From NCBI RefSeq assembly GCF_000521865.1, contig NZ_JAME01000032.1, forward strand, positions 1-58,221: a DNA stretch of 58,221 bases. The letters run 5' to 3'. This stretch comes from Roseivivax isoporae LMG 25204 (lineage in GTDB: Bacteria; Pseudomonadota; Alphaproteobacteria; Rhodobacterales; Rhodobacteraceae). This document shows positions 4,295 to 8,124 of this stretch, piece by piece. The position numbers were made by a program, and so were the translations under genes. The notes beneath the pieces are model-generated. The model had not been told where the DNA came from and searched no databases. It saw only the letters and a list, made by a program, of their open reading frames with translations. Numbering within the stretch: position 1 is the stretch's first letter; every line of letters begins with the position of its first letter.

Positions 4295-5842
4295 TCAGAA
4301 TACTTCATTACGGGCCCGGCAACGCACTTGATAGTGATAAGGCGCAACCTCTTCCACTGCCACCACAACCCCTGGTGAAACATTATTCATCTCGAAGAAG
4401 GGCCGGACCCAACCGCGGTCTCGGAAGAACTTCTTGGAGCCGTCCAAATCCGTAATCACCGGCATCGGTCCGCCCCAATCGACAGTCACCTTACGTTGAG
4501 CAACGCTAGCCTTATTTGACCCGCCGAGTGCGTCAGGAGGAAAGGCGTCGATGAAAGCTCTCAGATATATGTGCTTGTGAGTGATGTTGCCCTGAGTAAT
4601 GCAGGTTTCTCCGATGAGGCGTGGGCCGTCGCCTTCCGTGTGGAAGCGTTCGCCTCGAAGGGGCGCTCCGTCTGTATGCTCATCCCGACTGGGCAATTCC
4701 GCTGCGGCTGCATGGGTAGTCTCCGCACGGAGCACCACCTCCGCAGCGGCGCGGGCATCCTCTCCGGCATCGTGGTGCTGAAAGTCGAGCTTCAAATGCT
4801 TCTTCAGAGATGCGAGCCCGTGGCCACCATTGCCCTTGAGTTCCGGCCAGGCTCGCCGAGCGATTTGAACGCTGTCCTGCCAGTCCCAGCTGGGCGGCAC
4901 CATGCCATAGCTCGCACATGCTGCGTTCACGGCGCTCCGGTCGAACCCTGAGTGCTGATACACGGTGTGCTGTCCGAGGTGGCCGCGAAGGAACTCGATG
5001 ACCTGCGGAAAAGTGGGCGATCCGGCGACGTCCTTCCCGGTGATGCCGTGGACAAAGCTGCAGGACCAGTCGTCGGTCTTGGGGTCCACGTACGTCATCC
5101 AAGTCTCGATGTTGTAGTCCTCACTCACGGCGGCGACCCCCACCTGGCAGATGCTGCCACGATCACGATTGGCGGTTTCGACATCGAGCGCGAAGAACCG
5201 AACCGCGCCATCGGGGAAGGGCGGCAAGCCGGTCTCATATGCCGTCGAGGAGGCGTGAGAAGCTGGCATCCCCGTTCTTCCGGTAAAGCGCTGCCGCTGG
5301 CGGTCGAGTGCGGCTCTCTCCGAAGCGTTCAGCCCGAGCCGCGTGATCGTCTGGTCGACGAGATCGACAGGCTCTTCGTAGGCCTCTGTGCCGCGGTAGT
5401 TCCAGGCGATCATCTCGGTTGGAGCAATACGCAGTGCGGCATGCTCCAAGGCCGCGATGTTGACCTCGTCGGGAAGTGCGACCCAAACCGCGCGACAATG
5501 CTCGGCGATGAACTCGTTGCGGAGCTTCTTCGCGATGTCGCCATCCGCCTTCGTGGCCGGGTGGTTCCGCTGCCGCCACATGCGCCCGGTATTATACATG
5601 CGAGAATAGTAGTGGCTGGAGTCCTCGGAGCCGGTGCGGTGCCGCTGATGGATGCGTTCGTACAACGTTTGGGATCGGCTGGATGTCGATCCGATGTAAC
5701 GGATACGACCAAGGTGATCGATCAGGGCGTAGATGCCGCGCTGGTCTCGCGGAGCGTCCCTCGTGAAGGCAGGCGTTGCCGCAAGGAGCTGCTGGAGGAT
5801 GTCTTCAGGGGTCGGATGATTGGCAAGCATACTCGTATCCAT
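4295..5842 (-). CDS. GIY-YIG nuclease fused to DEDDh (DnaQ-type) 3'-5' exonuclease
   Basis: A two-nuclease protein of about 515 residues. An upstream start at 5905 is possible, but 5842 avoids overlapping the preceding gene. Numbering from 5842: a GIY-YIG domain at about 35-150 with GIY (36-38), YIG (49-51), R63, E133 and N148. A linker follows, then an exonuclease domain at about 214-375 with ALDVET (D220, E222), D301 in the FDRSA motif, and H357/D362 in HHDAGEDAR, the full DEDDh set. A C-terminal region (about 400-515) matches nothing I know. GIY-YIG enzymes cut DNA strands; DnaQ-type domains trim 3' ends. The UvrC/Cho-type fusion known in actinobacteria has the opposite domain order. It is the last gene of a three-gene operon (6816-7064, 5854-6819, this gene, 11 bases apart). 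A repair or defence role is inferred. Confidence 0.85.
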   Translation of the reverse strand: MDTSMLANHPTPEDILQQLLAATPAFTRDAPRDQRGIYALIDHLGRIRYIGSTSSRSQTLYERIHQRHRTGSEDSSHYYSRMYNTGRMWRQRNHPATKADGDIAKKLRNEFIAEHCRAVWVALPDEVNIAALEHAALRIAPTEMIAWNYRGTEAYEEPVDLVDQTITRLGLNASERAALDRQRQRFTGRTGMPASHASSTAYETGLPPFPDGAVRFFALDVETANRDRGSICQVGVAAVSEDYNIETWMTYVDPKTDDWSCSFVHGITGKDVAGSPTFPQVIEFLRGHLGQHTVYQHSGFDRSAVNAACASYGMVPPSWDWQDSVQIARRAWPELKGNGGHGLASLKKHLKLDFQHHDAGEDARAAAEVVLRAETTHAAAAELPSRDEHTDGAPLRGERFHTEGDGPRLIGETCITQGNITHKHIYLRAFIDAFPPDALGGSNKASVAQRKVTVDWGGPMPVITDLDGSKKFFRDRGWVRPFFEMNNVSPGVVVAVEEVAPYHYQVRCRARNEVF

Positions 5843-5853
5843 TCTACTGGTGA

Positions 5854-6819
5854 TCACTTCTGGCGCTCGACGCGTTGCCACGCAACGCCGCTCACGATCC
5901 CCCAATGGCCCTGCTCGTTCGGCCGCCGCCAGCGGGGGATGGGCATCGCGTTCAGCGCCGCAAGTGCATCGTCGAAATTGTCGAAGTGCTGTTCTTCACC
6001 CTTGGCGCCGATCTGGTACTTGCCGCCTCTGACGAGGTCCGGATGGAAGAGCGATCCATCACGGGCGACCGGAACGAAGATCAAGCGTTCAAGGGCAACT
6101 GGGGGCAGGGGAGCTTCGGGCCCATGGTCGTCACGGTCTTCTGACGACCAGATGGAATGGAGAAAGCCCTTTCGCTTTTGCAGCCAAGTCATAGCGCTCA
6201 TGGCTTTCACTCCGCCACCAGGGCCGCGCTCCAGCTGTGCCGAAGCACCGGACATGAGATTGCGGACCCTGCTTTCGGAAATCGCACCCAAGATGACCAT
6301 CGAGGTGATGTCCACCTCGCCTTCGCCTCGATCCAATGCGTGCCGCGAGGCTGCGAGATAGGCGATCCGAGTAACCGCGTTGTCGCCATCTCCAAGGCTC
6401 CGAACCTCGCTTCGAGATGCAAAGCGCGAGACGTCGTCGACCAGTGTGGCGATCCACCGGGCGCGGTCCTCGACGGGGATCTTGACCGGGGTAACTCCGT
6501 AAAGTCCGTAAAGCAGAGCCGCGTCGAGCCTATCTGAGATCGGTGGCGTGGTTCCAGCTGCGAGCGTATCTTCCATGACCTCGCGCCAGTCGACGGCCCT
6601 CGGGTTATTGATCACCGCGATAGGATCGACAAGTTCACGCAGCGGCCGAGCTGCGCTAGTGGGCCCGATCAGGCCTTCAACGTGCTCCAACGCCTGTGAG
6701 AGGATTTCGGCGACAACGTCGGCGTAGTCCCAATAATGCTCGTCGTCTCCGTGACGAAAGCCAGCCTCGCGGAAGGCTTCGCGACGTTCCTCAGCATTCA
6801 TGATGTGGTCGATATTCAA
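5854..6819 (-). CDS. Unknown protein, 321 residues, middle gene of nuclease operon
   Basis: No family recognised. The N-terminal third is acidic and helical. A central stretch at about 165-225 reads like a helix-turn-helix (ITSMVILGAISESRVRNLM, then a Trp-containing helix), suggesting nucleic-acid or partner binding. The C-terminal part (about 245-310) is rich in aromatic and basic residues, with segments such as LIFVPVARDGSLFHPDL. The start overlaps the upstream small gene by ATGA (6816-6819), so translation is coupled, and the GIY-YIG/exonuclease gene follows after 11 bases. The tight arrangement implies that the three products act together. Confidence 0.75.
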   Translation of the reverse strand: MNIDHIMNAEERREAFREAGFRHGDDEHYWDYADVVAEILSQALEHVEGLIGPTSAARPLRELVDPIAVINNPRAVDWREVMEDTLAAGTTPPISDRLDAALLYGLYGVTPVKIPVEDRARWIATLVDDVSRFASRSEVRSLGDGDNAVTRIAYLAASRHALDRGEGEVDITSMVILGAISESRVRNLMSGASAQLERGPGGGVKAMSAMTWLQKRKGFLHSIWSSEDRDDHGPEAPLPPVALERLIFVPVARDGSLFHPDLVRGGKYQIGAKGEEQHFDNFDDALAALNAMPIPRWRRPNEQGHWGIVSGVAWQRVERQK

Positions 6820-7064
6820 GCTACTGCTCCGATGCGATGAAGTCTGCGAATTGCGGCGCGGACGTTGACGAGGTTGCGGTGATCGGACGGCGTAGCCGCC
6901 GCGAAGACGTCGCCGAGCTCGAACCGCAGGCGGCAGTGCTTACGGTCCACATCAATCCCGAGGAGGTTAAAGCCTTCAGAGAGGCAGAGCCTCCGGTACT
7001 CACGAGCGACCCTTGTCATGGCATTTACGATCATACGGTAGTGTTGTTGTACCGCGTTATACAT
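6816..7064 (-). CDS. Small unknown protein, first gene of nuclease operon
   Basis: An 82-residue basic protein (or about 67-72 residues if a later ATG is used) of no family I recognise. It contains many Arg and an alternating helix/strand pattern. It is translationally coupled by ATGA to the next gene. A good promoter-like pair (TTGACA / TATAAC) overlaps the first codons, so transcription may begin after the ATG at 7064. In that case Met11 (7034) or Met16 (7019) would be the real start, although neither has an evident ribosome site. Confidence 0.6.
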   Translation of the reverse strand: MYNAVQQHYRMIVNAMTRVAREYRRLCLSEGFNLLGIDVDRKHCRLRFELGDVFAAATPSDHRNLVNVRAAIRRLHRIGAVA

Positions 7065-7663: not shown

Positions 7664-7706
7664 ACTAAGAAGTGATCGTGTTTATATATATCAGTAGGTT
7701 GGCGAT

Positions 7707-7762
7707 AGAGCGCTTCGTTCACATCGAAGATGTCGGGGGTTCAAATCCCTCATCACCCACCA
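7707..7762 (+). pseudogene. Displaced 3' half of tRNA-Val(CAC): island attachment site (attR)
   Basis: The 3' part of a tRNA is intact. It has D-stem 3' arm GAGC (7708-7711), anticodon stem 7713-7717/7725-7729 and loop TTCACAT with anticodon CAC (7720-7722). A five-base variable region, T-arm 7735-7751 with TTCAAAT loop, acceptor 3' strand ATCACCC (7752-7758), A73 and CCA (7760-7762) follow. The 5' acceptor strand and 5' D-arm are absent: the preceding bases are an AT run that cannot pair. This is the usual product of site-specific integration into a tRNA 3' end. Confidence 0.8.
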
Positions 7763-8124
7763 TCCTCCCCATCCTGAACGCTGCCGCGCGGACCGCGCCG
7801 GGTCCGCGACAGCCCGTCGTGGTGTCGTCCGGGCGTCGCCCACGGGCCGGGCGGGAGGGCGCGCGCCGCGCCCCCTGGGCGGGTCGCTCCCTATAAACGT
7901 ATTGGTTTATTTATAACTCCCGTCGCGCCCCGCGGCGTACCCCTTTTTCCTTTTGGATCAACGCTTTCGTTTACCACTTGCGGTTGTTGCCCCGCCGCGC
8001 GCGCGAATTGACAGAAGGGGGGTCGGCTCGATTGCCTGTGAAAAAGGCGCCCGCTTACGGGTGCACGGAACGGCACGGAGGATCCCCACATGCAGGCATC
8101 GCGCAACACCCGTCCGGGGCCGGC
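7763..8124. other. Leader region upstream of the catabolic cluster, no gene
   Basis: About 360 bases between the tRNA remnant and the first amidohydrolase. It begins GC-rich, contains an AT-rich patch with an inverted repeat ATAAAC-6-GTTTAT (7893-7910), which could be an operator or promoter element, and a TTGACA hexamer near 8007 without a clear -10. No coding frame convinces me. Confidence 0.4.

Follow-up and report, generated by a model that had tools for sequence, protein, structure and literature searches.

A reverse-order GIY-YIG–DEDDh nuclease fusion with exchangeable tails and two conserved partner genes: a candidate mobile restriction-type defence module

What does a GIY-YIG endonuclease domain do in one chain with a 3'-5' exonuclease domain, behind two partner genes and beside a tRNA attachment site? 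This question is raised by a three-gene operon in contig NZ_JAME01000032.1 of Roseivivax isoporae LMG 25204, the whole of which (58,221 nucleotides) is the window analysed here. An original prediction, made from the sequence alone, had placed a three-gene operon at 4295-7064, and there we found its three open reading frames (ORFs), on the reverse strand, as P3, P2 and P1 in order of transcription (Table 1). We lean towards reading the operon as a mobile defence module of restriction type (type IV-like), where protection is what we infer rather than what has been demonstrated.

P1 carries two nuclease domains whose sites are both intact in the window and in 45 of 47 fusions compared, as had been foreseen for the window. 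The DEDDh part, which has the D-E-D-H-D site and fold of these exonucleases, matched Pfam RNase_T (E = 1.4e-13), PHROG 192 (E = 3.1e-27) and NCBIfam PRK07883 (E = 2e-11), a model that we take to be of the kind in which a Cho-like nuclease is fused to an exonuclease (Cho-like + Exo). Foldseek matches of P1 included the DnaQ domain 8h18 (E = 9.4e-9), ExoX, DinG and Cap18 (7t2s, E = 2.7e-4), and 48 of the 50 listed matches were of DEDDh type. With Cap18 of CBASS and the 8h18 domain, both of which presumably have an immune use, P1 shares the DEDDh fold, a relation at the domain level only, and we know of no GIY-YIG partner domain for either. The Pfam GIY-YIG match of P1 was weak (E = 0.2, below the family cut-off), and the same family matched the GIY domains of 7 of 8 relatives (best E = 0.005). 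P1 nevertheless has the GIY...YIG strands and the R/E/N set of the superfamily, with GIY36-38, YIG49-51, R63, E133 and N148 in a model that shows strands at 35-41, 47-52 and 117-123 and helices at 60-70 and 129-139. The 47 fusions are the window plus 46 of 57 loci, those with near full-length GIY and DEDDh parts in one frame; the 57 come from a scan of a species-genome collection with the GIY domain, which was pattern-seeded and so returned close relatives only. Residues G36, Y38, Y49, G51, R63, N148, D220, E222, H357 and D362 were present in all 47, and E133 and D301 in 46 each (locus L093 lacks the former, L138 the latter), while position 37 was I in 21 and L in 26.

The three genes form a conserved operon. 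At 21 of the 57 loci P3, P2 and the GIY gene occur in this order (L107 among them with a broken fusion), and P2 accompanies the GIY domain at 31, in counts that call gene presence by hidden Markov model (HMM) and include close relatives unweighted. The dedicated partners that had been proposed are thus conserved with the nuclease in other genomes. P2 and GIY stood without a separate P3 match at 10 loci, of which two have a DUF4258-like gene and three, rhizobial, have GIY without the exonuclease; in L099 the P3 match lies within the P2 frame, L105 and L127 lie near contig ends, L133 is truncated, and L128 has none of these features. Intergenic gaps ranged from -4 to 42 nt, setting aside three values that unplaced starts or a broken fusion had distorted. 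In the window, P2 starts at a TTG that overlaps the P3 stop as TTGA, or at an alternative ATG at 6801; for P1, the ORF list gives a TTG at 5905, and the ATG at 5842, 11 nt after the P2 stop, is likelier. Pairwise divergences of the P1 core, P2 and P3 correlated (r = 0.85, 0.93 and 0.88; 0 of 2000 permutations each) across 20 loci, near-copies included.

Table 1. Operon genes, protein modules and attachment-site repeat in the window
Feature	Position	Strand	Description
P3 (P0003)	6816..7064	(-)	82 aa, HicA-like small protein; gene 1 of operon
P2 (P0002)	5854..6819	(-)	321 aa; helical N-terminal part with helix-turn-helix (HTH)-like helices, then P2C; gene 2
P1 (P0001)	4295..5842	(-)	515 aa, GIY-YIG + DEDDh fusion + tail; gene 3
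GIY-YIG nuclease domain of P1	5363..5755	(-)	residues ~30-160
DEDDh 3'-5' exonuclease domain of P1	4700..5203	(-)	residues 214-381
CT1 module, exchangeable tail of P1	4298..4621	(-)	residues 408-515
P2C module of P2, beta-rich, exchangeable	5866..6084	(-)	residues 246-318
58-bp copy of tRNA-Val 3' end, attachment-site end of island	7706..7763	(+)	exact repeat

The tail of P1 is exchangeable. After the exonuclease, relatives of P1 carry CT1 (as in the window), P2C (in L016, L020, which equals L097, L098, L119 and the broken L140), CT3 (in L135, L138 and, more doubtfully, L131) or no tail (L116). On a tree of the GIY and DEDDh parts of 42 labelled rows, a quick tree with several weak forks and with 5 broken-tail rows uncounted, the tail type changed at least 4 times. 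A P2-like protein in L130 has CT3 at its end too, with a local score of 84 against L135 (shuffles 26 ± 4, 0 of 2000 as high) and of 49 against L131 (0 of 2000 as high). As CT3 ends this protein in the way that P2C ends P2, the modules move between the nuclease and its partner.

We found that CT1 and P2C recur on ASCH proteins and on proteins of restriction type, each time in one or a few instances. Among 398 genomes of the phylum, CT1 was present in 5 besides its own, with contexts read for L205, L207, L208 and L209: an ASCH-CT1 protein in L205 (ASCH E = 2e-4); a short gene 26 nt after McrC in L207 (McrBC E = 3.7e-72); a short gene near a protein that is UDG-like by eye, not by Pfam, in L208; and, in L209, a stretch (residues 201-299, weakly matched at E = 1e-4) within a protein with AAA_5 and DUF3427 parts that we read as McrB-like. 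Within the family, an ASCH-like protein of L062 (ASCH E = 0.061, which misses the cut-off) has CT1 at its end, as, by eye, does one in L064. P2C occurred in 3 of the 398 genomes besides its own, as an ASCH-P2C protein (L211; ASCH E = 6e-4, just under the cut-off) and two P2 proteins. On an E. coli plasmid (L017, 7797-9309), P2C ends an XRE regulator that resembles the PADLOC 'control proteins' and adjoins a DUF6998 protein matching PADLOC mREase_II, a methyl-directed restriction enzyme (E = 1.8e-70). This nuclease was matched in 98 of 5426 complete E. coli genomes (97 at >80% coverage), 96 of the 5426 having one place that covers >80% of both the regulator and the nuclease genes, and the word DUF6998 was not found in the open-access literature searched. 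The layout of a regulator ORF followed by a nuclease is that of EcoBLMcrX-type systems, EcoBLMcrX following an 81-codon regulator ORF in the accessible text of PMC5487053; L017 is likened to EcoBLMcrX by this gene layout, and the window and L017 have the P2C module alone in common. Because P2C sits on an E. coli regulator, its ligand is testable in ordinary laboratory strains. An XRE-P2C regulator with a DUF6998/mREase_II-like nuclease was also seen at L214. Separately, a B3-type DNA-binding domain was suspected for CT1 from its residue pattern and rejected, with no match among PDB profiles and none among 50 listed fold matches.

The two partner proteins are harder to place. In Pfam, NCBIfam, PHROGs and PADLOC, P2 matched nothing below E = 0.12; together with 36 relatives (37 rows) it drew six stray Pfam matches, one row each (best E = 0.058), and Pfam HicB matched none of the 37. 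Its AlphaFold2 model is confident (mean pLDDT 91.3), but neither the PDB nor the viral library gave a fold match at E ≤ 0.001. Of the HTH-like core that the original prediction gave P2, the helices stand (171-178, 182-189 and 206-214 in the confident model), but no fold match backs them. P2C was also considered as a HicB domain, a candidate rejected after hhalign against five HicB-like proteins proved negative. P3 matched PHROG 2053 (E = 4.6e-7) and the PADLOC HicA-like model (E = 2.5e-4), and nothing in Pfam at E ≤ 1, HicA included; its His43 and PSDxR motif were invariant in 18 of 18 rows (the window and 17 relatives).

The operon is mobile, as seen in its patchy distribution and in an attachment-site repeat. 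The 58 bp listed in Table 1 recur exactly at positions 608-665 of C33, another contig of the same genome, where they span the last 57 bases (3') of an intact tRNA-Val(CAC) and one further base. By eye, a tyrosine integrase C-terminus is encoded in the first 155 bp of C33, and ARAGORN called no tRNA within the window itself. The predicted tRNA attachment site beside the operon is thus borne out. The repeat and the integrase end on C33 thus make the left part of the window one terminus of an integrated element (in tRNA-Val); the operon sits near that terminus, and the middle of the element lies in other contigs. Of nine genomes in the genus, one carries P1. In the family, 41 of 295 genomes matched P1 at E ≤ 1e-20, most by the DEDDh part alone, while both domains were covered in 7 (own included, two of them broken; by listed match ranges) and P2 was present in 10. 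The fusion is accordingly an accessory gene and not a core repair gene.

We read the operon as defence because defence genes lie beside some loci and because its modules are common to restriction-type proteins. One trait agrees with a type IV-like system: the operon has no cognate methyltransferase, with no methyltransferase match for P1, P2 or P3 in Pfam, NCBIfam, PHROGs or PADLOC. The P1 nuclease also bears an exchangeable C-terminal module, which may be the separate recognition domain of such systems. In 54 loci, 380 neighbouring genes were called, forming 331 clusters, and 101 were chosen from the nearest 150. At E ≤ 1e-10, PADLOC matches among these 101 included SAVED-HNH, ThsB, type I restriction, DrmMII, SoFic, HEC-06 and HKD+Snf2, in a tally that draws on the first 25 of 142 families and counts families, not proteins. 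Integrase, TniQ and transposase families appeared in 2-3 of the 101. Ten neighbours were examined singly because they were suspected (nine of the 101 and one beside L116), and three matched PADLOC at E ≤ 1e-5: a type I restriction enzyme at L103, an HKD+Snf2 protein at L142 and a SoFic-like protein at L116. The candidacy for defence put forward originally is in this way supported by context and shared modules, whereas the nick-then-trim action, the roles of the partners and protection stay conjectural.

Several observations weigh against this reading. No P2 was called by HMM at 26 of the 57 GIY loci (5 hold only a GIY fragment, and L130 and L134 have a P2-like gene by eye), and therefore the nuclease can occur without its partners. 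Another branch of P2 (L022-L027) had P3, DUF4258 or this GIY family in 0 of 6 cases. The CT3 label of L131 is weak, its score against L135 being matched by 98 of 2000 shuffles. Sequence searches for solved relatives of CT1, P2C and P2 gave nothing better than E = 0.4, and so DNA recognition by the modules is argued from guilt by association in few cases. The putative HicA-toxin identity of P3 draws on weak matches, and hhalign against four HicA-type proteins gave E = 0.02 at a probability of 2.3%. Lastly, 7 of the 10 singly examined neighbours had no defence match, and the neighbour tally comes without a background rate.

If the operon is such a restriction-type module, the tail of P1 would recognise incoming DNA by one of its features, a modified base being the likeliest, a target guessed from the ASCH, McrBC and methyl-directed company that the modules keep in a few cases. 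The GIY-YIG domain would then cut or nick the target, and the DEDDh domain would digest from the 3' end thus created, which would widen a nick to a gap or break. This order of finding, cutting and resecting is proposed by analogy with the wH-GIY-YIG enzymes, described as 6mA-dependent in the available part of PMC11037411, and with CMoRE/PD-T4-3, for which the corresponding part of PMC12923530 describes a GIY-YIG nuclease whose C-terminal part senses modified cytosine. P2, with its HTH-like helices and a module of its own, may control expression and/or sense the target, and P3 (HicA-like, with DUF4258 in its place in other P2 operons) may be a small RNase-toxin-type protein restrained by P2, a pairing that could provide regulation or a second, abortive arm.

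Among known systems, CMoRE/PD-T4-3 resembles P1 in its N-terminal GIY-YIG nuclease and C-terminal module, but it is a single-component system with a GIYxY-YIG motif (PMC12923530, from the same part of the text), whereas P1 has GIYAL...YIG, an intervening DEDDh domain and two partner genes. The leucine that departs from the CMoRE motif (Leu40) was invariant in 8 aligned rows, and PADLOC gave no CMoRE/PD-T4-3 match for P1 at E ≤ 1, in a library that may not hold that model. Cho-like + Exo proteins likewise combine GIY-YIG and DEDDh domains in one chain, but in the order exonuclease, GIY-YIG, C4-UvrB-binding domain, while P1 runs from GIY-YIG to DEDDh and has no UVR match; the N-terminal exonuclease of these proteins, given in the accessible portion of PMC1564403, bears out the earlier remark that the order in P1 is reversed. 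A core-type distribution would be expected of such proteins, and P1 is accessory and island-borne. In HicAB/DUF4258-type modules, as in this operon, a gene with HTH-like helices has a small toxin-like neighbour, but P2 has 321 aa and no HicB match, and a nuclease gene follows in the operon. The available text of PMC10865869, on the contexts of HicA, does not contain the term GIY-YIG. No description of the fusion order or the trio was found in the open-access literature searched. If our reading is true, one enzyme would hold both an endonuclease (GIY-YIG) and a 3'-5' exonuclease, directed by a plug-in module and accompanied by a toxin-like protein, a restriction design not met in the papers searched; CT1 and P2C would then count as novel recognition domains.

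A broader idea, which we hold only tentatively and think the less likely outcome, is that P2 operons make up an undescribed modular immune class. In it, P2 would be an adaptor and itself the target sensor (not a mere repressor), accompanied by a HicA/DUF4258 toxin-type protein and by exchangeable DNA-attacking enzymes (GIY-YIG-DEDDh, other GIY-YIG, UDG-superfamily glycosylase), all aimed by swappable DNA-recognition modules, CT1, P2C and CT3, that McrBC-type, ASCH and methyl-directed restriction proteins would use as well. Evidence that counts for the restriction-type module too comes from beyond the family survey, where we found nine intact P2 loci (leaving out the broken L075 and the P2C-only L073, L154 and L155), and a DUF4258-type gene adjoins P2 in eight of them: L070, L071, L072, L074, L152, L153, L156 and L213, of which L070 and L072 helped to build the DUF4258 model. 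The ninth, L076, has a DUF262 protein 213 nt downstream. L156 showed no P2C match and has an XRE-type end by eye. The third gene belongs to the UDG superfamily (Pfam UDG) in L152 (E = 1.4e-4), L156 (E = 1.3e-3) and L213 (E = 1.5e-6), and these P2-DUF4258-UDG operons are possibly a base-excision type of defence, to be compared with the antiviral DNA glycosylases of PMC11078745. In L074 the third gene encodes a 229-aa protein without an assigned family, and in L072 one annotated as a GIY-YIG nuclease, without a Pfam match. The L072 operon, on an Azospirillum plasmid, is divergent from DUF4007 and cysteine desulfurase genes, which may be connected with phosphorothioation loci.

The strongest competitor to restriction-type defence, in our view still improbable, is element maintenance or a toxin-antitoxin system, in which P3 would be a HicA/DUF4258 toxin, P2 a DNA-binding antitoxin, and the nuclease would harm cells that lose the island or block rival elements. 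A small toxin-like gene does stand beside a gene with HTH-like helices, with starts that overlap or lie close, and DUF4258 is listed, in the available part of PMC11980606, among BECR-fold type II toxin families, its activity being unknown. Among the 54 loci, genes read by eye as AlpA-like (9) and as integrase (8), along with the tRNA ends, fit an element with its own upkeep. Against it, the module of P2 is common to restriction-type proteins, and many fusions occur without P2 and P3. To our knowledge, a DNA exonuclease fusion is also not usual as a toxin of such systems.

A nucleotide-excision-like repair enzyme of the Cho-like + Exo kind, which would incise near a lesion and trim from the cut, is a good deal less probable. 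The solo P1 of L093 adjoins an SRAP gene, and Mycobacteria have GIY-YIG + DEDDh fusions proposed to act in this manner (PMC1564403, accessible portion); the reversed domain order, the lack of a UvrB-binding domain match in Pfam, the accessory distribution and the defence-type neighbours speak against it, as does another GIY-YIG frame of 628 aa in the genome, presumably UvrC. We give little credit to a homing-type selfish nuclease that would drive the spread of the island with accessory genes: GIY-YIG domains are common among homing enzymes (same portion of PMC1564403) and the island lies at a tRNA gene, but Pfam gave no NUMOD match, the integrase read by eye explains integration, and the genes are conserved in varied contexts and on plasmids. 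Least credible is a DnaQ-type trimmer accessory to CRISPR spacer acquisition, which would suit the best P1 fold match, the S. thermophilus DnaQ domain 8h18, presumably linked to Cas2, and the trio of L135 (the same place as L019) adjoining a gene that is cas1-like by eye and an array of 16 repeats, that array being found by a simple repeat test at this one place only of 90 loci.

A few further observations concern the distribution and surroundings of these genes. An origin as a phage gene was considered and set aside. Phage records matching P1 numbered 39, none over >80% of P1, and the 15 listed all start from residue 213 on; of 16 viral contigs, one alone (L077) matches the fusion in full, and a search with P2 meets the same contig (L150). 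At L106, L115 and L125, P1 genes without P2 and P3 begin ~400 bp beyond a tRNA-Ser gene, which may be a further hotspot of insertion. The record of L124 is titled Exiguobacterium profundum (a metagenome-assembled genome), and its copy groups with those of Rhodobacterales, so that the assembly is probably mislabelled. Metallophosphoesterase-like genes adjoin P1 relatives, by eye, in L094, L096, L118 and L120, and metallophosphoesterase-type Pfam matches were found in 3 of the 101 neighbour proteins; in the window, a Calcineurin-like phosphoesterase (Pfam) is encoded at 944-1753 on the reverse strand, in the same island as the operon.

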